Assembly: GCA_903875465.1 (NCBI GenBank) | Contig: CAIQWB010000149.1 | Span: 1 to 64,000, forward strand | Reading direction: 5' to 3' | From: an uncultured Verrucomicrobia subdivision 3 bacterium | GTDB lineage: Bacteria > Verrucomicrobiota > Verrucomicrobiia > Limisphaerales > UBA11358 | DNA length: 64,000 nt | Shown here: piece after piece, positions 45,582-62,852 of the stretch | Position numbering within the stretch: position 1 is the first letter of the stretch | Layout of the letters: each line of letters starts with the position of its first letter | Translations under genes and position numbers: made by a program | The notes under the pieces: model-generated | The model's database searches: none | What the model saw: only the letters and a program-made list of their open reading frames with translations | Told to the model about the DNA's origin: nothing

Positions 45582-46052
45582 TTAGGCTTTGGTTTCACCA
45601 GCCGGAGCGACTGCCGGAGTGGCGTCCGCTTCCTTGGTTACCGTGGCCGCAACGTCCGTAACGCCAGCCGGGGTAGTGGTTTCCGGAGCTTCCACCGCAA
45701 TGTCCACCCATTCAAGAATCGCGCGCTGGGCGGCATCGCCGTTGCGCTGATTCAAATGGAGGATGCGCGTATAACCGCCATTGCGCGTTTTAAACGCGGG
45801 GGCGATCTCCGTGAAGAGGACCTTCGCGGCGTCTTCCTGGTGCAGACGGGCCACCGCGAGGCGGCGGTCATGCACGGTGCCACTCTTGCCGAGGGTCACC
45901 AGTTTTTCGGCCACCGAGCGAGCCGCTTTGGCCTTGGCCAGAGTGGTGGTCACCCGACGGTGAATGATCAGGCTGCAAACCAAGTTGGCCAGCATCGCAT
46001 TGCGATGTTCCGATGTGCGGCCCAGTTTGGCCGTTCGCTTCAAATGACGCAT
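45582..46052 (-). CDS. rplQ: 50S ribosomal protein L17 with C-terminal extension
   Basis: MRHLKRTAKLGRTSEHRNAMLANLVCSLI. Confidence 0.97.
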   Translation of the reverse strand: MRHLKRTAKLGRTSEHRNAMLANLVCSLIIHRRVTTTLAKAKAARSVAEKLVTLGKSGTVHDRRLAVARLHQEDAAKVLFTEIAPAFKTRNGGYTRILHLNQRNGDAAQRAILEWVDIAVEAPETTTPAGVTDVAATVTKEADATPAVAPAGETKA

Positions 46053-46058
46053 AACAAA

Positions 46059-47072
46059 TTACTCCGCTTTGGGTTCTTCTTTCGGCGCCTCGAGGAGGCC
46101 CGGTTCAAAATTCATGCCGAGCGCCAGTCCCAGGGCCGTCAGCTTGTCTTTAATTTCATTGAGCGATTTCTTGCCGAAGTTACGATACTTCAGCATTTCC
46201 TGCTCACTTTTCATGGCCAGCTGGCCCACGGTGGTGATGTTGGCGTTGTTCAGGCAGTTGGCCGCCCGAACACTGAGTTCGATCTCATTCACGCTCATGT
46301 TCAGCAGCTTCTTCATCTTGGACTTTTCTTCGTCCTGCTTGTCCGCTGCTTCTTCAAATTCAATGGCGTTCTTGTCGTAACCGACAAATACGTCCAGGTG
46401 ATGGGACAGGATGGCGGAGGATTGCGTAAGCGCATCATCGGGAGAAATCCGGCCGTCGGTCCAGATTTCTAAAATCAAGCGGTCGTAATCCGTACGGTTA
46501 CCCACGCGGGCGGCTTCCACGGCATAACGAACCCGGGTGACCGGGGAAAACAGCGAGTCAATTGCCACGACGCCAATCGCCTGACCAGCCTTCTTGTTCT
46601 CGTCGTTCTGGCAGTAGCCACGGCCGACACGAACAGTCAGTTCCATCTCAAATTTCTTTTTCTTGTCAATCGTGCAAATATGCTGCTCCGGATTGACAAG
46701 CTCAACATTCTGGTTGGTCTGAATGTCGCCAGCGGTGACCGCACCTTCTTTGTTGACGGAAAGCAACAGCGTTTGTTCTTCGCGATTGTGAGCTTTGAAC
46801 TTAACTTTCTTAAGGTTCAAAACAATGTCCGTCATGTCTTCAACCACGCCTTCGATGGTGGCAAATTCGTGCATCGCACCGTCCACCTTCAAGGAGGTGA
46901 TGGCGGCACCTTCGAGCGAGGAAAGCAGCACGCGGCGGAGGGAATTGCCAACCGTATGGCCATAACCCGTTTCAAACGGATCGGCAATAAATTTGGCATA
47001 AGTGGCCGTCGCTGTTGCTTCTTCCTTCTGCAACCGCTTCGGCATTTCAAAACGTCCGAGTTTAACTGACAT
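46059..47072 (-). CDS. rpoA: DNA-directed RNA polymerase subunit alpha
   Basis: [27 protein letters not shown]-like NTD; [49 protein letters not shown]. Confidence 0.98.
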   Translation of the reverse strand: [337 protein letters not shown]

Positions 47073-47175
47073 GGTATCCTTTCAACAATTGTTAACTGGC
47101 GTCCACCGGCCTATTCCCCGGACGGACGGACACCCATATAATTGTTTGTTTCGCCAAAGCGAAACGGGTTATGGT

Positions 47176-47784
47176 TTAACGGGAATAAAATTCGACGACC
47201 GCCTGCTCATTGGCAATGGGCTGGATCTCATCACGCGTCGGAACGCGCATTACGGTGCCCTTGAAGTCTTCTTTGCTGAGCGACAACCAATCCGGCACGG
47301 CGCGACTGGTGGAGATTTCCAGATTCTTAGTGGCGAGCTGGCGTGAAACATTATTGTTTTTCACGTGGATCACGTCATTCACCTTCAAGGCAAAAGACGG
47401 AATGCCAACCTTGCGACCATTGACAGTCACGTGGCCGTGGCACACCAGCTGGCGGGCAGCGGCGCGGGTGGTGCCGAAACCAAGGTGGAAAACCACATTG
47501 TCCAGGCGCGTCTCAAGAATTTGCAGCATTTGTTCGCCCGTGACACCACGACGGCGGAGCGCCTTTTCGTAGACACCGCGGAACTGCTTTTCCATGAGGC
47601 CGTAGTAGTAACGCAGCTTTTGCTTCTCGATCAGGCCGAGGCCGTAATCGGTGTGCTTGCGGCGGGACTTGGGGCCATGCACGCCGGGACCGTAGTTGCG
47701 GCGTTCCAAATATTTGGAAGGACCGAAAATGGGGAGCCCAAAACGGCGGCTGATACGAACACGAGGACCTGTATAACGAGCCAT
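47176..47784 (-). CDS. rpsD: 30S ribosomal protein S4
   Basis: MARYTGPRVRISRRFG..., LRYYYGLMEKQFR, RLDNVVFHLGFGTTRAAARQLVCHGHVTVNG. Confidence 0.98.
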   Translation of the reverse strand: MARYTGPRVRISRRFGLPIFGPSKYLERRNYGPGVHGPKSRRKHTDYGLGLIEKQKLRYYYGLMEKQFRGVYEKALRRRGVTGEQMLQILETRLDNVVFHLGFGTTRAAARQLVCHGHVTVNGRKVGIPSFALKVNDVIHVKNNNVSRQLATKNLEISTSRAVPDWLSLSKEDFKGTVMRVPTRDEIQPIANEQAVVEFYSR

Positions 47785-47817
47785 AAATTAAATATGCAAA
47801 GTCAAACTTGAAATTGA

Positions 47818-48384
47818 TTAGACGCGGCGTTTCTTGCGCGGGCGGCAGCCATTATGCGGAACCGGGGTCACATCCTTGATGGCGCTGATTTCCAAACCGA
47901 TTGCCTGGAGGGCGCGGATCGCCGACTCACGGCCTGAACCAGGACCCTTGACCCGGATTTCCACTTCCTTCATCCCGTGGGCCATGGCCTGACGGGCGGC
48001 ATCTTGGGCCACTTGTTGCGCGGCGTAAGCCGTGCTCTTGCGGGATCCCTTGAATCCCACCCGGCCGGCGCTGGACCAGCCAATCAGATTGCCCTGCGCG
48101 TCCGTGATGGTCACCTGGGTATTATTGAAAGTAGCGAGAATATTAGCCACGCCAGAAACCACGTTCTTGGCATGCTTGGCCTTGATAATCTTCTTGGCAT
48201 TGGGATCTTCACCCAACAACTCGGCCGCCGTAGGCGCGGCAACCACCGGTACTTCCACGGGCTTGGTCGGATCAATGACTGCAGCGGCGGCGCCGGGAGC
48301 AGCCGGAGTGCCTTTGGCGGCAGCATCAGCCGCCGGTTTGGCTTCCTTCTTGGGAGCCGCTTTTTTCTTAATTTCTTCAGACAT
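47818..48384 (-). CDS. rpsK: 30S ribosomal protein S11 with about 65-aa Ala/Pro/Lys-rich N-terminal extension
   Basis: [44 protein letters not shown]...[13 protein letters not shown]. Confidence 0.97.
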
Positions 48385-48411
48385 AATACAAATTCAAAAT
48401 GATAAAACGCA

Positions 48412-48792
48412 TTATTTGGCAGCCGCGCGCTGCACCCCGACCGTGCGGCGGGGACCTTTGCGAGTGCGGGCGTTGGTCTGCGTGCGCTGACCACGAACCG
48501 GCAGACCGCGCATGTGGCGGATGCCGCGATAGCATTTGATACCTTGCAAACGCTTGAGATTCATGCCGATTTCGCGGCGCAGATCCCCTTCGATCACATA
48601 CTTGCCTTCCTGAATCGCATGCACGATCTGGGAGAGCTGCTGCTCGGTCAAATCCTTGGCGCGAACCGTGCGGTCGATATTGGCGCGCTCGAGAATCTCA
48701 ATCGCGTTGCTCGGACCGATGCCGTAAATGTAGCGGAGCGCGATATCGATGCGCTTGTTGGAAGGAACTTCCACACCTATGATGCGTGCCAT
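48412..48792 (-). CDS. rpsM: 30S ribosomal protein S13
   Basis: [26 protein letters not shown]...[24 protein letters not shown]. Confidence 0.98.
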
Positions 48793-48795
48793 ATA

Positions 48796-48909
48796 TTAGC
48801 CTTGCCGTTGTTTGTGACGTTTGTTGGTGCAAATCACGCGAATGACGCCACGACGGCGTACCACTTTGCAGTGCTCACACATTTTTTTAACTGACGCGCG
48901 AACTTTCAT
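48796..48909 (-). CDS. rpmJ: 50S ribosomal protein L36 (37 aa, not in ORF track)
   Basis: Manual minus-strand translation [37 protein letters not shown]. Confidence 0.96.
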
Positions 48910-49004
48910 TTTCTAAAATATTGTAAATTGCTCTAAATTTTCACCGAACCACTACCTGCTACCGTCCCACACCCTGCCCAGCTAAACCGGCGGTCCAGGA
49001 CGTG

Positions 49005-49220
49005 CTAAATCTGTGGCAAAATCCGCCCCACCGATAAATCATAAGGCGTCAATTGCAACTGTACCGTGTCCCCGGCCTTATAAGCTGGGGCGTCTCGGCG
49101 AGCCCGCCCGGTAACGAACGCCGTCAACCGGTGTCCATTCTTTAACTCGGCGTGCCAGGTGCCGTTCGGCAGCACTGCCACCACCACCGCCGCTACGCGA
49201 AAGACCGATTCTCCGGCCAT
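49005..49220 (-). CDS. infA: Translation initiation factor IF-1 (divergent)
   Basis: VAVLPNGTWHAELKNGHRLTAFVTGRAR...GDTVQLQLTPYDLSVGRI. Confidence 0.88.
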   Translation of the reverse strand: MAGESVFRVAAVVVAVLPNGTWHAELKNGHRLTAFVTGRARRDAPAYKAGDTVQLQLTPYDLSVGRILPQI

Positions 49221-49963
49221 GTTAAAATCTCCGGCCCTTTGTCGGTAATTAATACCGTATGTTCAAAATGGGCAGATAGTGAACCATCTTGTGTCACCAC
49301 TGTCCAGCCGTCTTTCAATATTTTTACGTTGGCTGAACCCGCGTTAACCATCGGTTCGATCGCCAAGGTCATCCCCGACCGCAACTTCTGGTTGCTATTT
49401 CGGTCGACGAAATTAGGGATTTGAGGTTCTTCATGCATCGTTCGACCGACGCCATGGCCCACAAATTCCCGTACTACACTAAAATTGTTGCTCTCAACGT
49501 ACTGCTGCACAGCGCGCGATATATCGGAAACCCGATTGCCCGGCAAGGCGGCAGCAATTCCCTCATACAGGGCTTTTTCCGTTACATCCATCAACCGCTG
49601 GGCGGCCACGCTGCATCCGCCAACGGCCACCGTTTTGGCTGTGTCACCAATAAAACCACGATAAGACACGCCTACGTCCAAACTCACAATATCACCAAAT
49701 GTTACCTGGCGTTCGCTACCCATGCCGTGAACAACTTCGTCATTGACCGAAATGCACGTATGGCATGGAAACTTGCGATAACCTAAAAAGGCGCTCTTCG
49801 CCCCGTGGGCGCGGATTACTTCCGCTGCCAGATTATCAATTTGCCGGGTGGTTACGCCTGGCTTGATAAAGGCTGCCACCTCATTCAACACTTTGGCAGC
49901 TAATGCGCACGCCGGGCGCATTGATTCCAAATCTAACTCCGTTTTGAGGACAATCTTGCCCAC
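49193..49963 (-). CDS. map: Methionine aminopeptidase type I
   Basis: FPCHTCISVNDEVVHGMGS, GDIVSLDVGVSYRGFIGDTAKT, GHGVGRTMHEEPQIPNF. Confidence 0.97.
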   Translation of the reverse strand: MGKIVLKTELDLESMRPACALAAKVLNEVAAFIKPGVTTRQIDNLAAEVIRAHGAKSAFLGYRKFPCHTCISVNDEVVHGMGSERQVTFGDIVSLDVGVSYRGFIGDTAKTVAVGGCSVAAQRLMDVTEKALYEGIAAALPGNRVSDISRAVQQYVESNNFSVVREFVGHGVGRTMHEEPQIPNFVDRNSNQKLRSGMTLAIEPMVNAGSANVKILKDGWTVVTQDGSLSAHFEHTVLITDKGPEILTWPENRSFA

Positions 49964-49972
49964 AGTCCAGAG

Positions 49973-51358
49973 TTAGAAGCGTCCCCGGACGCGGCCTTTC
50001 TTGAGAAACCCATCATAATGACGCATCATTAAGTGAGATTCCATCTGCCGCATCGTGTCCAAGAGCACACCCACCGCGATCAAAATACTCGTACCGCCGA
50101 AGAAGGTGGCTACGTCATAAGGAATCCCGAGTTCCTTAAATAGAATAATCGGAATCGTGGCGATTACCGTCAGGAACAAAGCACCGGCAAACGTGATGCG
50201 GGTCATCGCCTTGTGTAGGTAATCACTCGTCCCCTGGCCGGGACGAACCCCCGGGATATAACCGCCATTCTTCTTCAAATCATCAGCAATCTGCAATTCA
50301 TTGAACTGCGTGGCCACCCAGAAGTACGAGAAGAACAGGATCATCAAGGCGTACAAGGACAAGTAAAGGAACGCACCTTCATTAAGTGACCGGGCAATAT
50401 CCCCGAAGAACGCGATGTTAAAGCGCTGATCGAGAATCAAGAAAATCTTCTGCGGGAACATCAAAATCGACTGGGCAAAAATGATCGGCATCACCCCGGC
50501 ATAATTAACCTTGAGCGGCATGAACGAAGTCCCACCGGCATACATCTTCCGACCAACCGCCCGCTGGGCGTACTGTACCGGAATCTTACGTTGGGCCTGG
50601 GTGATCGCGATGACACCGGCAATCACAACCGCTAATAAAATCACAAGCAACAAACCCGTTCCCGCCAAATGATAGTTCGCTTCAATGCCGCCGGCTGGGA
50701 AAAACATATCGTGTAAACCGGTAAACATTTTCGGCAAACGAGCCACAATGCCCACCGTAATGATCAGGGATACACCATTCCCAATGCCACGTTCAGTGAT
50801 TTGTTCACCCAACCACATTAACAACATGGAACCCGTCGTCATCAACAAGACGGTTTGAATCCGGAACCACCAGATGTGGTCATCGCTAAACAACACCAAA
50901 CGGCCAATACCCTGGCCGAAAATCTTGTCCGGACTTTCAAAACCAATGGCAAATACAAAACCCTGAATCAAACAGAGCAGCACCGTCAAATAGCGGCTGT
51001 ATTGAATGATCTTGGTACGGCCGCCCTCTTCCCGAGCCAGCTTGCTCAATTTTGGCCACACCGCCGTCAATAATTGAATAATGATTGTGGCACTGATATA
51101 GGGCATGATGCCCAGCGTACCAATCGCACCATGCTCCAAGGCACCGCCCGCAAACAAATTGTACATGCCCAACAAACCGCCGCCCGCATGGGACTGGCTG
51201 TTGTAATAGGCCGACAGTGTGTTACCAGACAGCCCGGGAATTCGAATGAACGAAATCAACCGGCAGACGAACAAGACGCCAAAAGTGAACAGAATCCGGG
51301 ATTTAAGCTCCGGAATTTTGAAGCAATTGACGAAAGTATTGGCAATGGAGCGAAACAT
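49973..51358 (-). CDS. secY: Preprotein translocase subunit SecY
   Basis: LMWLGEQITERGIGNGVSLII, RKIPVQYAQRAVG; about 10 TM. Confidence 0.98.
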   Translation of the reverse strand: MFRSIANTFVNCFKIPELKSRILFTFGVLFVCRLISFIRIPGLSGNTLSAYYNSQSHAGGGLLGMYNLFAGGALEHGAIGTLGIMPYISATIIIQLLTAVWPKLSKLAREEGGRTKIIQYSRYLTVLLCLIQGFVFAIGFESPDKIFGQGIGRLVLFSDDHIWWFRIQTVLLMTTGSMLLMWLGEQITERGIGNGVSLIITVGIVARLPKMFTGLHDMFFPAGGIEANYHLAGTGLLLVILLAVVIAGVIAITQAQRKIPVQYAQRAVGRKMYAGGTSFMPLKVNYAGVMPIIFAQSILMFPQKIFLILDQRFNIAFFGDIARSLNEGAFLYLSLYALMILFFSYFWVATQFNELQIADDLKKNGGYIPGVRPGQGTSDYLHKAMTRITFAGALFLTVIATIPIILFKELGIPYDVATFFGGTSILIAVGVLLDTMRQMESHLMMRHYDGFLKKGRVRGRF

Positions 51359-51370
51359 GAATCAATCCAC

Positions 51371-51844
51371 TTAGGGCTTGGCTGCGACTGCAGGCTTGGC
51401 AACCACCACTTCGCAGGTGCCGCCCAAAGCTTCGATTTTGGTTTTGGCGGATGCGCTAAAGGAATTCGCCACCACGGTCAGCTTTTTGGTCAGCGTGCCC
51501 GTGCCCAGAATCTTAAGACCGGCCGATTTGCCATTGGCCAGGCCAATCGCACGGCAGGCGGCCTCATCCACGCGAGCGCCATTGTCGAAAACTTCCAAAC
51601 CGCCGACATTCACGGGGCTGTAACGCACGGTGAACCGGGCATTATTAAAACCGCGCTTCGGGATGCGGCGAATGAGCGGCATCTGACCGCCTTCGAAACC
51701 GATACGAATCGAGCTGCCGGAGCGGGCGGTTTGGCCTTTGCCACCGCGACCAGAAGTCTTACCGTGACCACTGGATTCGCCCTGGCCGAGGCGTTTGGTG
51801 CGATGCTTGGCACCCGGACGAGGTTGTAAATTGTGCAGACGCAT
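51371..51844 (-). CDS. rplO: 50S ribosomal protein L15
   Basis: MRLHNLQPRPGAKHRTKRLGQGESSGHGKTSGRGGKGQTARSG. Confidence 0.97.
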   Translation of the reverse strand: MRLHNLQPRPGAKHRTKRLGQGESSGHGKTSGRGGKGQTARSGSSIRIGFEGGQMPLIRRIPKRGFNNARFTVRYSPVNVGGLEVFDNGARVDEAACRAIGLANGKSAGLKILGTGTLTKKLTVVANSFSASAKTKIEALGGTCEVVVAKPAVAAKP

Positions 51845-51849
51845 AAAAA

Positions 51850-52491
51850 TCAGGCCGTAGCGGGTGCGGCAACCGCCGACCCAGGAACCACGGGAACTTC
51901 AGTGGGTTTAACTTTGTGAATGGTCATGCCACGGCCCTTGTAAATTTCTTCACGGAGGCGGAGGCTCAAAAGGGCGTTCAATGTGGCTTTCACAACGTTG
52001 GCCGCATTGCTGGAACCAAGGGACTTGGTCAGAATATCTTTGACCCCGGCGGATTCCAATACGGCACGCACGGTTTTTCCAGCGATCAAGCCGGTACCGG
52101 GCGAGGCCGGACGGAGCAAAATCTTGGCCCCACCATAAGTGGAATACACTTCATGGGGAATGGTGGCATCTTTCAAGGACACCGGGACCATCTGGTTGCG
52201 GGCAAGTTCGCCACCACGGCGAATGGCATCCGCTACTTCGCTGGCTTTGCCCAAGGCATAACCCACGCGGCCGCGCTTGTCGCCAATGACCACCAAGGCG
52301 CTGAAATTAAACCGGCGGCCACCTTTGACCACCTTGGAGGAGCGGTTGATGAAAACCACTTTCTCCATCAATTCTTCGCCGCCACCGCCGCCGAAACCAC
52401 CATCGGAATCGCCGGGTTTGCCACGACGGCCACCGCGTCCGCGAGGACCGCGCTGGTCATCGCCACCAGGTTTTTTTACAATATCAGCCAC
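51850..52491 (-). CDS. rpsE: 30S ribosomal protein S5 with Gly-rich N-terminal extension
   Basis: EKVVFINRSSKVVKGGRRFNFSALVVIGDKRGRVGYALGKA. Confidence 0.98.
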   Translation of the reverse strand: MADIVKKPGGDDQRGPRGRGGRRGKPGDSDGGFGGGGGEELMEKVVFINRSSKVVKGGRRFNFSALVVIGDKRGRVGYALGKASEVADAIRRGGELARNQMVPVSLKDATIPHEVYSTYGGAKILLRPASPGTGLIAGKTVRAVLESAGVKDILTKSLGSSNAANVVKATLNALLSLRLREEIYKGRGMTIHKVKPTEVPVVPGSAVAAPATA

Positions 52492-52511
52492 AGTATTCTT
52501 CTTGGTTCAGG

Positions 52512-52877
52512 TTAAAATTGCAGGCCAGCTTCCCGGGCCGCTTCGGCCAGAGCTTTGATTTTGCCATGATAGCGGGTGCCACCGCGGTCGAACACGACCT
52601 GCTTGATACCCTTTTCAATGGCAGTTTTGGCAGCGAGCGCGCCGATCACTTTCGCACTGGCCACATTGGCAGCCAGGGTGTCACGATCAGGAGTGCTCTT
52701 GGCCAGGGTCGAAGCCGAGGCCAGCGTCTTGCCGGCATCGTCATCGATAAACTGGACGTGAATATTTTTGTTGGCAAAGCACACGGCCATGCGGGGGCGC
52801 ACGATCGAACCGCGGACTTTTTTACGGATGCGCCAGCGGCGCAACTGCGCCAAACGTTCTTTTTTATCAGTTCTCAT
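52512..52877 (-). CDS. rplR: 50S ribosomal protein L18
   Basis: RMAVCFANKNIHVQFIDDDAGKTLASAST; VVFDRGGTRYHGKIKALAEAAREAGL. Confidence 0.97.
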   Translation of the reverse strand: MRTDKKERLAQLRRWRIRKKVRGSIVRPRMAVCFANKNIHVQFIDDDAGKTLASASTLAKSTPDRDTLAANVASAKVIGALAAKTAIEKGIKQVVFDRGGTRYHGKIKALAEAAREAGLQF

Positions 52878-52915
52878 TGGTTTTGGCCACGGATTTTGCC
52901 GGGGCTTAAAATTTA

Positions 52916-53452
52916 TTATTGGACCGTCTTGCCTTCCTTGCGCACCACGTGCTCACCGGCATAGCGAACACCCTTGCCCTTGTAGGGTTCCGGGGGATAA
53001 TAACCACGGATTTCGGAAGCCACCTGGCCAACCACCCGTTTGTCCGGGCCTTCAATGGTAAGCTTGGTATTTTCTTCGACCGTTACCTTGATCTGATCCG
53101 GAATGGCATAATTCAGCGGATGTGAATAGCCTAGGGAAAGATTGACAACTTTGCCCACCACGGCGGCTTTGAAACCGACACCCTGAATTTCCAGTTTTTT
53201 GACAAAACCATCGGTCACACCTTTGACCATGTTGTTGACCAAGGCGCGGCTGAGTCCGTGCAGAGCTTTTGCTTGCGCGTCTTCACCATCGCGAGTCACC
53301 AAAATCTTGCCGTCCTCGACCTTGAGGCTCGTGCGTTTCGGCAGTTCCCAGTCGAGTTTGCCTTTCGGGCCTTCGACAAGAACTTTCTGCCCCTTCACCT
53401 CGATCTTAACCTTCGGGGGAATGGCAATCGGTTGTTTTCCAATACGCGACAT
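52916..53452 (-). CDS. rplF: 50S ribosomal protein L6
   Basis: MSRIGKQPIAIPPKVKIEVKGQKVLVEGPKGKL; PEPYKGKGVRYAGE. Confidence 0.98.
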   Translation of the reverse strand: MSRIGKQPIAIPPKVKIEVKGQKVLVEGPKGKLDWELPKRTSLKVEDGKILVTRDGEDAQAKALHGLSRALVNNMVKGVTDGFVKKLEIQGVGFKAAVVGKVVNLSLGYSHPLNYAIPDQIKVTVEENTKLTIEGPDKRVVGQVASEIRGYYPPEPYKGKGVRYAGEHVVRKEGKTVQ

Positions 53453-53459
53453 AAAATTA

Positions 53460-53846
53460 TTACCAAATATAGCAGAGCAGTTCTCCGCCCAGGTTTTTCT
53501 TCTTGGCTTGCGTCCCGGTCATGATGCCTTCCGAGGTTGAGAGAATGGAGACACCCATTCCGCCCAGCACCCGGGGAATTTCCGTGGAACCCACGTATTT
53601 ACGCAAACCGGGCTTGCTAATCCGCTTCAAGCCTTCAATCACAGCCTTTTTGTCCTGATACTTGAGCTGAATTTTCAGCTTCTTGATCGCTTTGCCTTCG
53701 ACGGACACTTCGGAGACATAACCTTCGCTCTTCAAGATCTGGGCCACGCCCTCTTTGATGCGCGAGTGCGGCAGCTCCACCGCTGGCAGCAATGCACGGC
53801 TGGCATTGCGAATGCGGGTCAATAAATCGGAAATCGGATCGCTCAT
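53460..53846 (-). CDS. rpsH: 30S ribosomal protein S8
   Basis: MSDPISDLLTRIRNASRA; STSEGIMTGTQAKKKNLGGELLCYIW. Confidence 0.98.
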   Translation of the reverse strand: MSDPISDLLTRIRNASRALLPAVELPHSRIKEGVAQILKSEGYVSEVSVEGKAIKKLKIQLKYQDKKAVIEGLKRISKPGLRKYVGSTEIPRVLGGMGVSILSTSEGIMTGTQAKKKNLGGELLCYIW

Positions 53847-53851
53847 AAAAA

Positions 53852-54121
53852 TTACCAGCTGGCTTTGGTTACTCCGGGAATCAAACCATTCAGGGCGCCT
53901 TCACGGAATGTCATCCGCGAGCAGCCAAATTTGCGCAGATAACCACGACGGCGGCCACTGAACGAGCAGCGATTCACCACCCGGGTGGGGCTGGCGTTCC
54001 GCGGCAGTTTGGCAAGGCCGGCGTAATCGCGTTTCGCCTTCAATTCAGCGCGGATGGCGGCGTACTTTTTTACCGTCTCCGACTTGCGCTTGTTGCGCTC
54101 CAACCATGATTTCTTGGCCAT
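53852..54121 (-). CDS. rpsN: 30S ribosomal protein S14 (zinc-independent type)
   Basis: [28 protein letters not shown]...[40 protein letters not shown]. Confidence 0.97.
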
Positions 54122-54127
54122 AAAAAT

Positions 54128-54670
54128 TTATTTTTCCGCAAACGGAAAGCCCATCAATTTCAACAAATCCAACGCCAGGGCATCTTTGCCCGCGGTGGTT
54201 ACCACAGTGATATCCATCCCCTGCTGGCGCTTGATCTTTTCAAGCTCGATTTCGGGGAAAATCGTTTGATCTGACACACCGAAGGTGTAATTGCCACGAC
54301 CGTCAAATTTCCGGGGCGAAAGCCCGCGAAAATCGCGAATCCGGGGCAGGGCCGCGGCGACCAGACGATCAAAAAATTCGTACATTTCCTCGCGGCGCAA
54401 GGTGACGCGGCAACCAATCACCTGGCCTTCGCGCAATTTGAAGTTGGCGATGCTATGACGGGACTTGCTGGTGGCCGGCTTGCGGCCGGTAATCAAGGTC
54501 AAATCTTTGGCGGCGTCTTCAATGGCACCCTTTTCGAGGGAAGCACTGACACCCATGTTCACCACGATCTTAACAAACTTCGGGATCTGGTGGACATTTT
54601 GAAAGTTGTGCTTGGCCTGGAGGGCGGGCACCACTTCATTTACGTATTTTTCGTACAGTCGGGCTTTCAT
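54128..54670 (-). CDS. rplE: 50S ribosomal protein L5
   Basis: PKFVKIVVNMGVSASLEKG; IRDFRGLSPRKFDGRGNYTFGVSDQTIFPEI. Confidence 0.98.
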   Translation of the reverse strand: MKARLYEKYVNEVVPALQAKHNFQNVHQIPKFVKIVVNMGVSASLEKGAIEDAAKDLTLITGRKPATSKSRHSIANFKLREGQVIGCRVTLRREEMYEFFDRLVAAALPRIRDFRGLSPRKFDGRGNYTFGVSDQTIFPEIELEKIKRQQGMDITVVTTAGKDALALDLLKLMGFPFAEK

Positions 54671-54711
54671 TTTTTGGCATCACGGATTTGGCCGTGACAG
54701 GTCTTTAAATA

Positions 54712-54987
54712 TTAGGTTGTGGCCGGGGCCGTGGCGTGTTTGGCAGCGCGCGCGTCGAAATTCGTCGCGGCCATCACATTGGATATGTGAATGGAACCCT
54801 CACGCTCCACAATGGCTCCCTGCGGATGCTGCTGGCTCTTGCGCGTATGGCGCTTGATCATTTGCACGCCCTCAACGAGCACGCGTTCTTTGCCTGCGAG
54901 AATGGTGATGATCTTGCCGCGCTTGCCTTTTTCTTTGCCCGCGAGGACGACCACTTCGTCACCTTTTTTTACATGAAACTTTGACAT
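54712..54987 (-). CDS. rplX: 50S ribosomal protein L24
   Basis: FHVKKGDEVVVLAGKEKGKRGKIITIL. Confidence 0.96.
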   Translation of the reverse strand: MSKFHVKKGDEVVVLAGKEKGKRGKIITILAGKERVLVEGVQMIKRHTRKSQQHPQGAIVEREGSIHISNVMAATNFDARAAKHATAPATT

Positions 54988-54991
54988 AACT

Positions 54992-55357
54992 TCAAATCAC
55001 TTCCGGAGCCAGCGAGATAATCTTCATGAACTTCTTTTCACGCAATTCGCGCGCCACGGGGCCAAAAATACGGGTGCCCTTGGGGTTCAATTCCTTATCG
55101 ATGATGACACAGGCATTGCGGTCAAACCGCAAATAGGAGCCATCATTACGGGGAATAATCTGGCGGGTGCGCACCACCACGGCGTCATGCACCTCACCTT
55201 TTTTCACGGAACCGTCCGGCGCGGCATCTTTGATATGAACTTTGATCACATCACCGATCCCGGCATAACGTTGGTTGCGACCCAGCACGCCAATCGCCCA
55301 GGCGATTTTGGCACCCGTGTTGTCGGCAACATCCAGACTGGAACGAATTTGCAACAT
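54992..55357 (-). CDS. rplN: 50S ribosomal protein L14
   Basis: [20 protein letters not shown]...[27 protein letters not shown]. Confidence 0.98.
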
Positions 55358-55366
55358 AAGAAAAAA

Positions 55367-55687
55367 TTAGGCGGCGGCTGAGGTTTCCTGCACGGCGCGC
55401 TCCACCACTTCCACCAGGCGCCAGCATTTCAATTTCGACAGCGGCCGGGTTTCCTCGATCCGCACCGTGTCGCCAACTTTGGCTTCGTTCTTCTCGTCGT
55501 GGGCGTAGAATTTCTTGTACGCGGTGACGATCTTTTTAAATTGGGGATGCGGAAAACGCCGCTCCACCCGCACCACGATGGTTTTGGCCATCTTGTTGCT
55601 AACGACTTCGCCCACGCGTTCCTTGCGGTTGCCGCGGGCGGCTGCCGCCGTCGCGACGGCTACCGGTTGTGTGACAGTTTCAGACAT
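55367..55687 (-). CDS. rpsQ: 30S ribosomal protein S17 with N-terminal extension
   Basis: [57 protein letters not shown]. Confidence 0.97.
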
Positions 55688-55695
55688 ACAAAAAA

Positions 55696-55899
55696 TTAGG
55701 CGGCTTTGACTTGGTTGCGCACTTGGGAAATGCGGGTCTCGAGACGCGCAATATCTTTGCGCAGGGTCCGCAAACGGGCGGGCTTTTCCAGTTGTGCACT
55801 GGCCTGTTGCAAACGCAGGTTGAACATTTCGTGGCGCAGGTCACGGCTTTTGGCCGCGAGTTCGACCAGCGTCAAATCTTTGGATTCAGCAAATTTCAT
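55696..55899 (-). CDS. rpmC: 50S ribosomal protein L29
   Basis: [48 protein letters not shown]. Confidence 0.95.
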
Positions 55900-55910
55900 A
55901 AACGATCGGT

Positions 55911-56333
55911 TTAGCTGATGTGTTGGTGCCGCGCGATGAATTTCGTCTTAATCGGCAGCTTGGTCGCGGCCAGCCGCATGGATTCCCGGGCAACCGCCTC
56001 GGTCACACCATCCACTTCAAACAGGACATTCGCCGGGCGAATCACGGCCACCCAGGATTCGAGGGGTCCCTTGCCCTTGCCCATTCGCGTTTCCAACGGC
56101 TTCTTCGTGAAGGACTTCTGGGGGAAGATCCGGATCCACATCTTACCGTGGCGCTTCATGTTACGGGCAATCGCCACACGGGCGGCCTCAATTTGCTTGG
56201 TGTCCAGCCAGCAACGCTCCAAGGACATCAAACCATACTCCCCGAACGCCACCGTCTGGCCGCGATACGCGAGCCCGGTACGGCTGCCCCGGTGCATTTT
56301 CCGAAACTTTACTCTGGCTGGTTGCATTGACAT
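55911..56333 (-). CDS. rplP: 50S ribosomal protein L16
   Basis: MSMQPARVKFRKMHRGSRTGLAYRGQTVAFGEYGLMSLE. Confidence 0.98.
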   Translation of the reverse strand: MSMQPARVKFRKMHRGSRTGLAYRGQTVAFGEYGLMSLERCWLDTKQIEAARVAIARNMKRHGKMWIRIFPQKSFTKKPLETRMGKGKGPLESWVAVIRPANVLFEVDGVTEAVARESMRLAATKLPIKTKFIARHQHIS

Positions 56334-56357
56334 AACAAAAATCTCTGCTCTGCTAAA

Positions 56358-57032
56358 TTATCCAATGGTCACTTCGGCGGCCGGCGCGGGGGTGGCCGCT
56401 TTTTGCGGCTTGTTGTCACCCTTGCAAATCCAGACCTTGATCCCGAGCTTGCCGTAAACGGTCAAAGCCTCGGCAAATCCATAATCAATGTTCGCCCGGA
56501 GCGTGTGCAACGGCACCCGGCCCCAGTGATACATTTCCACCCGGGCCAGTTCAGCCCCGCCCAAACGACCAGCACAGCGAATCTTGATGCCTTCGGCGCC
56601 AAAATCCTTGGCCGTTTGCAGCGACTTTTTCATCGCGCGGCGGAACGAAACCCGGCGTTCCAATTGCAAAGCGATATTCTCAGCGACGAGCTGGGCGTCC
56701 AGCTCGGGCGTCTTGATTTCGACGATGTCGACATAGACTTCCTTGCCGGTCATCTTGCTGATTTCCTCCTTCAGCTTGTCGATCTCGGAGCCTTTGCGGC
56801 CAATGACCACACCCGGACGGGCCGTCAAAATCGTCACGCGGCAACGGCTCGCGGCGCGCTCGATCAAAATGCGCGGCACGGAGGCAGATTCCAGCTTCTT
56901 CTTCAGCAATTCACGAATCTTGCGGTCCTCGGTGAGGAGGGAGCCGAATTCTTTTTTGCCGGCGTACCATTTGGAGCGCCAGTCTTTGTTGACGGCTACC
57001 CGCAATCCGATTGGATTAGATTTTTGTCCCAT
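56358..57032 (-). CDS. rpsC: 30S ribosomal protein S3
   Basis: [44 protein letters not shown]. Confidence 0.98.
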
Positions 57033-57037
57033 ACCAA

Positions 57038-57370
57038 TTATTCGTCCGACAAAGTGATTTTAATGTGACAGCGGCGTTTGAGGATCGGGCCGGCCGAGCC
57101 GCGCGCCTTCGGGGTGAAACGCTTGATGGTGGTGGCCGTGCCGGCAACCGCCTCTTTCACCCGCAGCGATTCCGCTTTGAGTTTGTTGTTGTTTTCCGCG
57201 TTGGCAATGGCGGAGTCCAGGGTCTTGGCGACCAGGCGCGCACCTTTGCGCGGCACAAACTTCAGCACGGCCTGCGCTTCGAGCGCGGGCAAACCCTGGA
57301 TCTGACGGACGACTTCCCGCATCTTCTGCGCGGACATCGGCACGTTTTTCAAAATGGCAAATACTTGCAT
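57038..57370 (-). CDS. rplV: 50S ribosomal protein L22
   Basis: [72 protein letters not shown]. Confidence 0.97.
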
Positions 57371-57374
57371 AAGA

Positions 57375-57656
57375 CTATTTCGCTTCCGCCTTCGCCGTGT
57401 GGGCGCCGTGTTTCTTAAAGGTACGCGTCGGCGAGAATTCGCCCAAGCGGTGACCCACCATGTTTTCGGTGACGAACACCGGGTTGAAAACCTTGCCGTT
57501 ATGCACTGTGAAGGTCAGCCCCACAAAGTCAGGCGTGATCATGGACCGGCGGGACCAGGTCTTGATTGGCGTCTTCTGCTTGGTGTCCTTCGCCTTCTGG
57601 ATCTTTTCCAGCAGGTGGCCCTCAACAAACGGTCCTTTTTTTATCGAACGTCCCAT
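57375..57656 (-). CDS. rpsS: 30S ribosomal protein S19
   Basis: [20 protein letters not shown]...[48 protein letters not shown]. Confidence 0.98.
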
Positions 57657-57662
57657 AATAGA

Positions 57663-58517
57663 TTACTTGTTTTTCATCGGCAAGCCGTTGCGCTTGACGA
57701 CAATAAAGCGGTTAGAATATTTGTACTTGGCGCGGGTCTTGCCACCCTTGGCCACGCGGCCCCAAGGCGACATCAACTGCTGCCAGCCACCGCCAGATTT
57801 GGATTTGCCCTGACCGCCACCGTTTGGATGGTCCACCGGGTTCTTGGCCACACCACGCGTAATCCCGCGATGACCACGGTGACGCGTACGACCCGCCTTG
57901 CCCAGGATCACATTTTCGTGCTCCGTGTTGCCCACCTGGCCAATCGTCGCATAGCATTCTTCGTTGATCTTCCGGATTTCGCCAGAAGGCAGGCGGATTT
58001 GGGCATAGCCCTCATCGCGCGACATCAAAGTCGCCGCCCCGCCGGCCGAACGAACGATCTGACCACCACGCCCGGGCGTCAATTCCAAATTGTGAATGTG
58101 AATGCCGACCGGGATCGACTTCAAAGGCAGCGCGTTGCCAACTTCGGGCGGCGCCGTCGGACCACTGGAGAGCTTCAAGCCCACCACCACACCCACCGGG
58201 GCGATGATATAAGCTTTCTCCCCGTCCTTGTATTCCAGGAGCGCGAGGCGGGCCGAACGCATGGGATCATATTCAATCGCAATCACCGTGGCTTCGACGC
58301 CATGCTTGCTGCGCTTGAAATCAACGATCCGGATCTTCTGCTTGTGACCACCACCGATACCCCGGGCAGTGACGCGGCCATAAGCATTGCGGCCACCCGA
58401 TTTTTTACGCGTATATACCAGCGCCTTTTCAGGCTTGGTCTTCGTAATATCGCTGAAATCAGCGATAGTAATATAGCGCGTAGACGGCGTTAGCGGTCTA
58501 AAAGATTTAACTGGCAT
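57663..58517 (-). CDS. rplB: 50S ribosomal protein L2
   Basis: SGGRNAYGRVTARGIGGGHKQKIRIVDFKR; NPVDHPNGGGQGKSKSGG. Confidence 0.98.
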   Translation of the reverse strand: MPVKSFRPLTPSTRYITIADFSDITKTKPEKALVYTRKKSGGRNAYGRVTARGIGGGHKQKIRIVDFKRSKHGVEATVIAIEYDPMRSARLALLEYKDGEKAYIIAPVGVVVGLKLSSGPTAPPEVGNALPLKSIPVGIHIHNLELTPGRGGQIVRSAGGAATLMSRDEGYAQIRLPSGEIRKINEECYATIGQVGNTEHENVILGKAGRTRHRGHRGITRGVAKNPVDHPNGGGQGKSKSGGGWQQLMSPWGRVAKGGKTRAKYKYSNRFIVVKRNGLPMKNK

Positions 58518-58848
58518 AAAATCAAATAATCCAAGTCAGCAACTCTTGGTAGTTGTCCGAGCCATCATTCCTGTCTCGGTGATGAGAACAGTTATCGGCT
58601 CGCAATCAAGCTGTCCTGTTGGCTTTATGGGCTCAACGGGACGACGAATCTATCAAATATGGGAAACATTGCAATAGTTTTTTTATCTTTTTTTGGTTGG
58701 GGCGGGGAATATTCCAAACGCGAAGTGGTTTAGCCACCGAGGGAACACGGATTTTCCGACTAATGCGTAGCAATCAACCGCGCTTTTGAGGTGTAATATC
58801 GGAATTTTGAAATTCCCCGGTTTTAAGTTCGGAAGCCAAGTTTCCACC

Positions 58849-59700
58849 TTAAACCAACCGGCAGGCCATGCTCCTTTGCAAGACCCCACCACCGGCAGCA
58901 ATGCCCCCGGGGCCGGATTTGTTTGCGTATATTAAAGAGTTCTGTATAGCAATCTGTATTACTCTTTGAAAAACACGCCGCCCCCCGGCTGGCGCGGCAA
59001 ACCGAAAATCAGCCACTTCGGAAACCGGTGTTTTCTCCGGGTTGATTTCGACCACGGGTGTGCCCCGCCGGGCAGCGGCGAGAACCGGCTGGATCACGTC
59101 CAGAAACAAACTGGTTCCCACCGAGAACACCAGATCAAATCCCCTATCCTGCTCGTCATTAAACGCCGCCAAGACAGTTTCAGACAGGGGCTCGCCATCG
59201 AGCACGACGTCGGGGTGCAGAATGTCCTGACATTGGGGACAGTGAGGCCGTTTTGGCAACGACTCGAAGGTCTCCAGATGCACGCGGTAATCGCATTGGG
59301 TGCAGATGATGCGCCGCAAATTGCCATGGAGTTCAAAGACATTGCGGGAACCGGCGGGCTGGTGCAACTCATCGATATTTTCCGTGGCCACAAAGACGCT
59401 GCGGCCGGGCGTTTGCAGGGCCGCCATGGCCTGATGGGCGGCATTGGGCAGCTTGCCCCGGATGCTCTGCTCCAATTTAAACAGGTGCTTCCATGACAAC
59501 CGGGGATTCGCCTGCAAGGTATCGCTGGACAGAACTTCTTCAAATGGAAGGCCATCTTCCGTGAGCCCATCCGCAAAGGCCGTGGCGGCGCCGCGAAAGG
59601 TCGGGATCTGGGATTCGGCCGAGACTCCAGTTCCGGTGAGGAAGAGAACGCGTTTGGCCCGCTGCAACAATCCCCTGACCCGGTCAAAATCGCAATTCAT
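58849..59700 (-). CDS. Sir2-family (sirtuin) NAD-dependent deacylase-like protein with divergent motifs
   Basis: VLFLTGTGVSAESQIPTFRG, VATENIDELHQPAGSRNVFELHGN, CTQCDYR...CPQCQDILHPDVVLDGEPL, VFSVGTSLFLDVI. Confidence 0.9.
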   Translation of the reverse strand: MNCDFDRVRGLLQRAKRVLFLTGTGVSAESQIPTFRGAATAFADGLTEDGLPFEEVLSSDTLQANPRLSWKHLFKLEQSIRGKLPNAAHQAMAALQTPGRSVFVATENIDELHQPAGSRNVFELHGNLRRIICTQCDYRVHLETFESLPKRPHCPQCQDILHPDVVLDGEPLSETVLAAFNDEQDRGFDLVFSVGTSLFLDVIQPVLAAARRGTPVVEINPEKTPVSEVADFRFAAPAGGRRVFQRVIQIAIQNSLIYANKSGPGGIAAGGGVLQRSMACRLV

Positions 59701-59863
59701 ACGATTAGCTATTACCGCTTAACCCGAATGATTTCAACTGGTAATGAAGCCCCGCCGGTTCCTCGCTAGGGACACGTAACCTGCGCACGATCAGGTTGCG
59801 CACGGAAGCATAAGAACTTGCGAATTGAGCAGCCGCCGTTCTATTTGCCGCCAGAAACTTTTC

Positions 59864-60427
59864 ATGAACCCCACCTTTCCCGGCGAATTGCGCTCTGCCC
59901 GGCTGAGCTTGCGGCGGTTGCAACCTGACGACGGCCCCGCACTGTGCGCTTATCGCTCCCTGCCCGGCGTGGCGCGCTATCAATATTGGGATGCCTTTGC
60001 AGCGGCTGATGCGGCGCGCCTGATCGCGGACCAGGCCACCGCCGAACCAAATATTCCGGGAACCTGGTTTCAACTGGCGATTACCCAGACGGCCTCAGGC
60101 AGCTTGATTGGTGATTGTGGTCTGCACTGCCGCGCTGAGGAACCTCGCCAAATGGAATTCGGAATTACCCTGGCACCCCGCCACCAGGGTTTTCATTACG
60201 CCGACGAGGCGATCCACTGCCTCCTCGCTTATGTTTTCGACAGCCTGGGCACGCATCGGGTTACCGCCACGGTGGATGCGCTCAATCGGCCGGCAATCGC
60301 GCTTTGCCGCCGGCTGGGATTCCGCCAGGAGGCTCATCTGGTCGAGAACGTCTGGTTTAAAGGTGCTTGGGGCAGTGAATATATTTTTGCGATGCTAAAG
60401 CGGGAGTGGGAAATACGCCAACGGTAG
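59864..60427 (+). CDS. GNAT N-acetyltransferase, RimJ/RimL-like
   Basis: Frame of ORF 59825..60427, start MNPTFPGELRSARLSLRRLQPDDGPAL; EFGITLAPRHQGFHYADEAIHCLLAYVFDSLGTHRVTATVDALNRPAIALCRRLGFRQEAHLVENVWFKGAWGSEYIFAML. Confidence 0.88.
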   Translation: MNPTFPGELRSARLSLRRLQPDDGPALCAYRSLPGVARYQYWDAFAAADAARLIADQATAEPNIPGTWFQLAITQTASGSLIGDCGLHCRAEEPRQMEFGITLAPRHQGFHYADEAIHCLLAYVFDSLGTHRVTATVDALNRPAIALCRRLGFRQEAHLVENVWFKGAWGSEYIFAMLKREWEIRQR

Positions 60428-60614
60428 CAGCCCATTCCCGGGCGGCACCAAAACACGCTGCGGCACGGGCTTCCGTGCCGATCGAATGGCTGGATGCGAG
60501 AGGGCTTCCAGCGACATCGGGGGGAAGGCGTGCTCCCCAACAGCGTTCAGGCTTCTCGTCCATCCCAAAAAATAATGCGGCGCTCTGCCGAGGCGCCGCT
60601 ACGACAATAAAAAA

Positions 60615-60643
60615 AGGCGCGGGGTGGAATTCACCTCGCGCCT
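60615..60643 (-). terminator. Rho-independent terminator after rplW, within the S10 gene cluster
   Basis: AGGCGCGGGGTG-GAATT-CACCTCGCGCCT (one wobble); minus strand continues TTTTTTTATTG. Confidence 0.9.
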
Positions 60644-60660
60644 CGTGGATAGCGTGTCGA

Positions 60661-60942
60661 CTAGGTCAAAACAATCTTGTCGCCGTCTTTCAACGTGACA
60701 ATCGCCTTCTTCCAGCCGGGCGTCGTGCCGGCCTGCGCGGTGCGCTTGCGGCGCGCCTTGCCCCGGACATTCAGCGTGTTCACGCCGGTGACCTTGACCT
60801 TGAAGAGTTCCTGCACGGCCTGGCGGATTTGCGTCTTGTTGGCGCGGGGATCCGCCACCACCGTGTACTGGTTGTACTTCTCGGACTGGCGCGTGCCTTT
60901 TTCCGTCAAGCGGACGGTCTTGATGATTTCAAAAGCGTTCAT
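60661..60942 (-). CDS. rplW: 50S ribosomal protein L23
   Basis: VRLTEKGTRQSEKYNQYTVVADPRANKTQIRQAVQELFKVKVTGVNTLNVRGKARRK. Confidence 0.95.
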   Translation of the reverse strand: MNAFEIIKTVRLTEKGTRQSEKYNQYTVVADPRANKTQIRQAVQELFKVKVTGVNTLNVRGKARRKRTAQAGTTPGWKKAIVTLKDGDKIVLT

Positions 60943-60943
60943 G

Positions 60944-61570
60944 TTATTCCTGAATCAAACGGGCTTCGATTTTTTCAAACGCGCTCTTGGTGAAGACGAG
61001 TTTGTCCGGCCGCAACACATCGTACGTGTTCAGCGAATCGCTGGTGGTTAAGGCCACATTGACCACATTGCGCGTGGCCAGCGTGAGGTTTTTGTCCAGG
61101 CCATTGGAAACGATGAGCGTGGAGCCCAGGCAATCCAGTGCGAGAATGATGTTGTTGATTTCCCGGGTCTTGGGCGAGCTCAACTTGAGATCATCCACCA
61201 CCACCACGTCACCGGCCTTGAGGCGTTCGCTCAGCGCTTTGCGCAGGGCGAGGGAACGGGTCTTCTTGGAAATCTTCTTGGCGAAATCGCGGGGCTTCGG
61301 TCCGAAGACCACGCCGCCGCCCGCCCACAAGGGGGAGCGGAAGGAGCCGGCGCGGGCGCGACCCGTGCCTTTTTGCTTCCACGGTTTCTTGTTCGTGCCG
61401 GCGACTTCGCCGACCGTTTTGGTGCAGGCCGTGCCACTCCGCTGCGCGGCTTGATAAGCCACCACTGCGTCGTGTACTGCCTGGGTTCCCCGGCCATTTT
61501 CCACCAGCTCGAACTTCACTTCCAGTTCGCCCTGGTCTTTGCCGGTAATGTCTTTAATGGAAATTTTCAT
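60944..61570 (-). CDS. rplD: 50S ribosomal protein L4
   Basis: GTACTKTVGEVAGTNKKPWKQKGTGRARAGSFRSPLWAGGGVVFGPKPRDF. Confidence 0.97.
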   Translation of the reverse strand: MKISIKDITGKDQGELEVKFELVENGRGTQAVHDAVVAYQAAQRSGTACTKTVGEVAGTNKKPWKQKGTGRARAGSFRSPLWAGGGVVFGPKPRDFAKKISKKTRSLALRKALSERLKAGDVVVVDDLKLSSPKTREINNIILALDCLGSTLIVSNGLDKNLTLATRNVVNVALTTSDSLNTYDVLRPDKLVFTKSAFEKIEARLIQE

Positions 61571-61579
61571 GGCCGTTCT

Positions 61580-62314
61580 TTACTTTTTGGCTGCATTGGC
61601 GGCTTCGGCCTTCTTGGCGTCAGCGGCACTCTTCTTGGCGTCTTTCTTGCTGATGGCCGCAACCGGCGGTTTCCAGCCCTGCGGACGCTTCTTCGCTTCG
61701 CGAATCACAACGTAATCCCCCTCGGCTCCCGGGATGGAACCTTTGATGAGCAACACGTTGTCCGTGTCACGCACCTGGATGATTTGCAAATTTTGGGTCG
61801 TGCGGGTCACCTGGCCCATGTGCCCGGGCATCTTCATGCCGCGCATGACGGTACCGGGGAACAAGCGCTGACCAATGGCGCCGCTGCGGCGATGCCAGCC
61901 CTTGGCACCGTGCGTGGAATCACCACCGGCAAACTTGTGGCGCTTCACCACGCCTTCAAAGCCCTGGCCCTTCGTGGTGCCAATCGCGTCAATGTAGTCA
62001 CCCACGGCGAACAAGTTCGCGCCGATGACGTCACCCGGCTTCACGTCCTTGGTGAAGTCACGAAATTCCCGGATGCGCTTTACCGCGACACCCTTTTGTT
62101 TCTTGATATGGCCGAGGAGCGCCTTCGTCAGGCGTTGTTCCTTCTGGTCATCAAACCCCAGCTGCACGGCGTTATAACCATCCTTGCCGGCCTGCGTTTT
62201 CACTTGCAGCACGCGGTTGGGACCGGCCAGAACGACGGTGACAGGGGTAACTTTGCCAGCGGCGTCATAGACGCGCGTATGGCCCAGTTTCTTGGCGAGT
62301 AATCCGATAGGCAT
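61580..62314 (-). CDS. rplC: 50S ribosomal protein L3 with Lys/Ala-rich C-terminal extension
   Basis: MPIGLLAKKLGHTRVYDAAGKVTPVTVVLAGPNRVLQVKT; GFEGVVKRHKFAGGDSTHGAKGWHRRSGAIGQ. Confidence 0.97.
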   Translation of the reverse strand: MPIGLLAKKLGHTRVYDAAGKVTPVTVVLAGPNRVLQVKTQAGKDGYNAVQLGFDDQKEQRLTKALLGHIKKQKGVAVKRIREFRDFTKDVKPGDVIGANLFAVGDYIDAIGTTKGQGFEGVVKRHKFAGGDSTHGAKGWHRRSGAIGQRLFPGTVMRGMKMPGHMGQVTRTTQNLQIIQVRDTDNVLLIKGSIPGAEGDYVVIREAKKRPQGWKPPVAAISKKDAKKSAADAKKAEAANAAKK

Positions 62315-62338
62315 AATATGATGTGGTTAAGGCTCGCT

Positions 62339-62647
62339 TCAGATTTTGATGGTGATGTCCACACCGGCCGGCAAATTGAGCTTCTTCAATTCGTCAACCG
62401 TTTTGGCCGTCGGATCCAGAATGTCAATCAGCCGCTTGTGCGTGCGCTGCTCGAACGTTTCCTGGGATTTTTTATCCGAGTGGGGTGAGCGTTGAACCGT
62501 AAAGCGTTCCACCCGTGTGGGGAGGGGAATGGGGCCGGCCACCCGGGCGCCCGTGCGTTTAACGGTGTCCGCGATTTCTCGCGCGGATTGGTCAATGACC
62601 CGGTGGTCAAAGGCCTTGAGACGAATACGAATGCGTTGTCCAGCCAT
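62339..62647 (-). CDS. rpsJ: 30S ribosomal protein S10
   Basis: [73 protein letters not shown]. Confidence 0.98.
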
Positions 62648-62852
62648 ACAAAGAGCGATTGTCTGTTAATGGTTCTCTAAATTTTACCCCGCTCGCGAAA
62701 ACGAAAGCGGACGTGGATACTAACATACCGGTGGAACTGTGCAATATATTTTTAAAATATTTTTGGGACCCTGCGGCCACGGCACCGGCAAATGCTTGAA
62801 GGACCACCAAAAAGATTGCCAATCCCTACCCTCTGCCCTTAATAATTCCCCC

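Follow-up and report, generated by a model that had tools for sequence, protein, structure and literature searches.

A structured RNA leader upstream of rplB accompanies the recurrent separation of rplW and rplB in the Limisphaerales

The window analysed here—a 64,000-nucleotide stretch from an uncultured bacterium of the order Limisphaerales (Verrucomicrobia subdivision 3)—lies well within the 67,148-bp contig 149 of a genome that is 96% complete (G000). In this window, the S10 ribosomal protein cluster is divided between rplW and rplB, and its genes are arranged as follows.

62339..62647, minus strand: rpsJ (S10; Pfam PF00338), which heads the upstream unit rpsJ-rplC-rplD-rplW
61580-62314, minus strand: rplC (Pfam PF00297)
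60944-61570, minus strand: rplD (Pfam PF00573)
60661..60942, minus strand: rplW (L23; Pfam PF00276), the last gene of the upstream unit
60609..60642, minus strand: intrinsic terminator of rplW, GGCGCGaGGTGaattcCACCcCGCGCC followed by TTTTTTT, with one mismatch in the stem and seven U residues
59825..60427, plus strand: GNAT acetyltransferase gene (Pfam PF13302), with the ATG at 59864 as a possible start
58849..59700, minus strand: Sir2-family (sirtuin) gene (Pfam PF02146)
57663..58517, minus strand: rplB (L2; Pfam PF03947 and PF00181), which opens the downstream unit
45582..57656, minus strand: rpsS-rplV-rpsC-rplP-rpmC-rpsQ-rplN-rplX-rplE-rpsN-rpsH-rplF-rplR-rpsE-rplO-secY-map-infA-rpmJ-rpsM-rpsK-rpsD-rpoA-rplQ, ordered by eye from the translations of the open reading frames

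The original prediction described a split of about 2.1 kb, a terminator behind rplW, and two genes in the interval (GNAT on the plus strand, sirtuin on the minus strand), and all of these stand. The rplW stop and the rplB start are 2,143 nt apart, both gene calls hold by open reading frames and Pfam, and the sirtuin–rplB gap measures the predicted 331 nt. The terminator is real: the 65-nt region folds with −26.9 kcal/mol (z = −4.3), and none of 200 shuffled sequences matches this stability; a generic terminator scan of the window did not pick it up. The unit from rplB to rplQ comprises 25 genes over about 13 kb (45582-58517; gene names assigned by eye). Inside the 331-nt gap, at 58518-58674, we found a promoter and a structured leader that the prediction did not contain.

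58647..58674, minus strand: predicted rplB promoter, TTGCAA-N16-TAGATT with an extended −10 TG
58518..58643, minus strand: rplB leader RNA, the whole modelled element (model R1, 91.5 bits)
58613..58641, minus strand: P1 hairpin, in which six of ten pairs are double-changed
58558..58603, minus strand: P2 core hairpin, GCGAGCCGAUAACUG...CAGGAAUGAUGGCUCG, defined by covariation (model R2), the universal part of the family
58531..58549, minus strand: P3 hairpin, CCAAG-AGUUGCUGA-CUUGG, defined by alignment; it adjoins the start codon and is not present in every family

Is the split peculiar to this genome? The prediction had called for a comparison of gene order in relatives, and we examined 146 Limisphaerales genomes, in which rplW (PF00276) was located in 135 and rplB (PF03947) in 134. 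The rplB regions were taken from 132 of them, and two (L240 and L245) were left out because rplB is cut at the contig end, leaving 130 assessable genomes. The two genes are adjacent in 77 of these, with a spacer of 6-67 nt, and lie apart in the other 53, at distances ranging from 0.2 kb to unlinked. Separation is therefore a recurrent trait of the Limisphaerales, and an explanation confined to a 2.1-kb insertion in this genome falls short: the split genomes have many different intervening or upstream genes. In the outgroup orders, rplW and rplB are adjacent in 12 of 13 loci, and rplW was not found in the thirteenth. The named relatives of the window are metagenome-assembled genomes of the Limisphaerales or Verrucomicrobia subdivision 3.

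These comparisons bear on two simpler accounts of the locus. According to the first, two genes entered an ordinary S10 operon locally, without regulatory consequence. No relative of the sirtuin or the GNAT gene was found in the named loci around rplB, and both are thus recent arrivals here; they are the lineage-specific filler of this interval, and other genes occupy it elsewhere. However, the insert is flanked by a terminator and a promoter, separation and leader recur together in 53 genomes, and rplB of the closest named relative, whose L2 is 94% identical, lies elsewhere behind the same leader, so we regard a mere insertion as quite unlikely. Even less probable is the second account, an assembly or binning artefact at 58.5-60.7 kb. 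The window does come from a multi-contig genome, but the 67-kb contig is continuous, independent assemblies carry rplW and rplB on one contig at distances of 0.2-25 kb and 131 kb, and at least 9.9 kb of sequence 5′ of rplB is free of rplW in more than 20 named loci. A join error, which the prediction had named as a possible refutation, is thus very unlikely given the relatives.

Some of the sampled loci show further peculiarities. In the separated genome L190 (G331:C176, about 3856-4000), rplW is directly followed by an apparent rpsP (S16), and the upstream half has thus acquired a new partner. L23, about 95 residues long in the window, lies within open frames of about 300-340 residues in six genomes of other orders (G059, G135, G147, G176, G185, and G206), where it is possibly extended or fused. 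The L2 domain at G305:C125:2623-3006 lies within a 569-residue open frame, which could be a fusion or an upstream open stretch. Five Limisphaerales-like rplB regions (L114, L098, L127, L131, and L087) stand under the titles Klebsiella pneumoniae, Proteobacteria, Akkermansia muciniphila, or Methylacidimicrobium; these public records are probably mislabelled or mixed bins.

Next, we consider how the two halves may be transcribed. Most separated genomes have a terminator-like hairpin and a U-run after rplW. The 200 nt 5′ of rplB are strikingly similar among the separated named loci, with a promoter-like TTGCA...TTTGnTA followed by the leader. The pattern TTGC[AG]...TGnTA, ending 117-137 nt before the rplB start, occurs in 41 of the 53 leader genomes, in none of the 77 adjacent genomes, and in none of ten shuffles. 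Moreover, the genes 5′ of the leader differ in nearly every lineage and are often divergent, which indicates that the unit begins with the leader at its 5′ end. The proposal of two transcription units is well supported at the sequence level by the rplW terminator, the conserved rplB promoter and leader, and the recurring separation.

The distribution of the leader follows the separation exactly. With the 330 nt before rplB searched for the core pattern, the leader was found directly upstream of this gene in all 53 assessable separated genomes (50 by the pattern and three by eye), and the core was found in none of the 77 adjacent genomes. In L197, L200, and L210, the core carries one variant base. 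The covariance model R1, built from a set of 48 leaders, matches 43 of the 146 genomes once each, and the matches end within about 10 nt of the rplB start in 42 cases and about 66 nt from it in one. Of the 11 separated genomes missed by R1, one is a contig-edge case, and the others, from families f2 and f7, carry a leader that has diverged. R2, the model of the P2 core, finds exactly the same 53 genomes at E < 1e-7 among the 146, and nothing else below 0.01. A search with R2 of 195 sampled genomes from other Verrucomicrobiota orders yielded no credible copy; we take the weak matches outside the order to be chance ones, the best of which (G162) falls inside a coding gene. The absence from adjacent genomes is partly trivial, because a spacer of 6-67 nt has no room for an element of about 125 nt. 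The informative half of the association, which is not trivial, is the presence of one and the same leader in all separated genomes.

The leader, about 125 nt long, is built around the core hairpin CCGANAAC...GGANUNAUGG, which a re-paired outer stem closes. In the named loci, the core reads CCGATAACTG-hairpin-CAGGA[AT]TGATGG. Covariation was assessed on alignments made from sequence only. For the P1 and P2 structure of 48 leaders, 94 cells are double-changed, as compared to 44.6 ± 7.1 after shuffling, and the covariation score is 0.276, as compared to at most 0.117 when the structure is slid along the alignment. The 53 aligned cores contain 116 double changes (44.8 ± 7.8 in shuffles), and the P2 score is 0.554 (0.206 shuffled and at most 0.185 slid); one P2 pair occurs as CG, GC, UG, UA, and GU. 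In families f2 and f7 the leader is diverged, with an outer stem re-paired, for example, as GCAUCCC/GGGAUGC, and P3 is not kept. The unpaired core CCGANAAC / GGANUNAUGG is almost invariant, as expected for a protein-binding site, for which it is a candidate. The internal loop of the core (58558-58603 and the cores of the other genomes) has the form UAA / GAN, which we take to resemble the UAA/GAN RNA motif; in the strand that contains N, only this base varies freely. The rplB leader thus combines two features expected of r-protein leaders—a conserved, covariation-backed secondary structure and a consistent position directly upstream of r-protein genes, with all 53 strong matches at rplB—and resembles in its behaviour those surveyed by Eckert and Weinberg (PMC7247131). 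The element, its structure, its position, the promoter-like sequence, and the perfect link to the separation can all be read from the genomes themselves.

Does the leader belong to a described family? An Rfam 15 search with relaxed thresholds gave no match to it, and no Rfam r-protein leader was detected up to E = 10 at 58480-62900, including the region upstream of rpsJ. The r-leaders of the Eckert and Weinberg study entered Rfam with releases 14.1 and 14.3 (PMC7779021), and by that measure the family is new. That survey of new r-leaders does not mention the Verrucomicrobiota (PMC7247131), and in a search of open-access papers neither a split S10 cluster nor such a leader turned up for this phylum. 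A new r-protein leader family is the best reading of the element, as far as its sequence can tell. The closest described counterpart is the L2 r-leader candidate of the Alphaproteobacteria, a structured RNA before rplB-rpsS-rplV-rpsC that was assigned to L2 by position only and whose covariation was rated borderline (Eckert and Weinberg 2020, PMC7247131). Both RNAs lie directly upstream of rplB, and in both the ligand is guessed from position; the present one belongs to another bacterial class, shows strong covariation, and matches no Rfam 15 model.

The L4/S10 leader of the Gammaproteobacteria is located in front of rpsJ, with L4 as its reader. It resembles the present element as a leader RNA at the S10 cluster with an encoded r-protein as its (in our case putative) reader, whereas the present leader precedes rplB and heads a unit that does not encode L4, the L4 gene being part of the upstream unit. 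The original prediction held that the split would alter L4-type control of the downstream genes. This is only partly supported: no known r-protein leader was recognised upstream of rpsJ, and in place of shared control the downstream genes have a different, conserved leader to themselves. In the window (62648-62720, minus strand) and in L173-L190, rpsJ has an apparent promoter of its own (TTGCAC...) and a short conserved 5′ UTR, in which a hairpin opening CGTCCGCTTT is followed by AACAGACAATTGTTCTTTGTATGG. A similar stretch at the start codon is retained in L171 and L172, where rpsJ still follows fusA.

Which protein might read the rplB leader? L2, whose gene lies nearest, is our default guess. 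It is not compelling, because the rplB-rplQ unit also encodes S8 and S4, which are leader ligands elsewhere. The known autogenous sites for S8 (spc) and for S4 (alpha) are internal to the cluster, close to rplE or rpsM; since both proteins are encoded behind the present leader, either could be its ligand. The S8 site, compared with the leader core by eye and hand, shows no clear likeness to it. A two-arm search for rRNA mimicry against the order's own 16S and 23S regions, a crude sequence test, performed no better than shuffles.

The failure of the mimicry search also fits a different view of the leader, namely that it is real but acts as a constitutive 5′-UTR element: an mRNA stabiliser, a ribosome standby site, or a processive antitermination signal for the 13-kb unit. 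The leader does head 25 genes, and the variability of P3 and the start-codon region leaves no obvious regulatory platform. However, families with the intact, longer cluster lack the leader, and an internal loop that hardly varies, set in a stem that re-pairs freely and placed at the start of an r-protein operon, agrees well with a protein-binding site. We consider a constitutive role unlikely, although less so than the insertion and artefact accounts, and an autogenous r-protein leader, as judged from these features, the most likely identity of the element.

The history of the leader is patchy. In a tree of L2, S19, L22, and S3, leader-bearing genomes are interspersed with adjacent ones (12 changes); the starred branches force at least five changes, and both states are present within families f87 and f99. 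A single clade of leader genomes was rejected (AU p = 5e-55), and hence a simple one-gain synapomorphy fails: either one gain was followed by many losses, or transfer occurred. On the uncollapsed tree, as upper figures, one gain would entail up to 22 losses, and up to 13 gains would be needed without reversal. Leader and separation change together in all five well-supported independent pairs (p = 0.06, the limit for five pairs). In G307, G351, and G279, the promoter and leader lie inside a still-linked spacer of 184, 199, and 374 nt, respectively, and likewise in L102 (about 410 nt). The presence of the leader inside spacers of 184-374 nt suggests that it preceded the split.

Taken together, we propose that rplB-rplQ is an independent unit under an autogenous r-protein leader, and that the leader came first and fission followed; from the sequence evidence, we put the probability of this whole explanation at about three in four. 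That the leader regulates, what binds it, how it acts, and in which order the events took place are our inferences.

Transcription: The upstream genes would end at the rplW terminator, and rplB would be transcribed from its own promoter. The rplB transcript would start with the structured leader, consisting of P1, the universal P2 core, and the variable P3.

Autogenous control: A protein encoded in the unit—L2 by default—may bind the P2 core once it outruns the rRNA. The bound protein would then lower the translation or the stability of the mRNA.

Fission: The leader probably arose first within the rplW-rplB spacer. With promoter and control in place for the downstream genes, the way would be free for insertions and rearrangements to separate them from the upstream half, as with the sirtuin and GNAT genes in the window.

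A bolder extension, which we offer only tentatively and hold to be doubtful as a whole, is that this r-protein leader family, not described before and perhaps the first with good support for L2 as its reader, is a portable regulatory module. It would have been gained, or have spread between lineages, repeatedly at the rplW-rplB junction and, because it gave the downstream genes control of their own, have permitted a highly conserved gene order to break up again and again. Among the published insertions of a few genes into the conserved cluster, those considered here separate S10 from str, separate str from rpoBC, or interrupt rpoBC; the present break falls within S10 itself and goes together with a new leader.

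Leaders in front of rplB are a rare class, to which the Limisphaerales add a candidate backed by covariation. The break-up of operons is mostly explained in hindsight. In this order, lineages that share one break point and one leader exist beside others with intermediate spacers and beside sister families in which the cluster is intact, and the idea that autonomous control precedes fission therefore becomes testable on real lineages.
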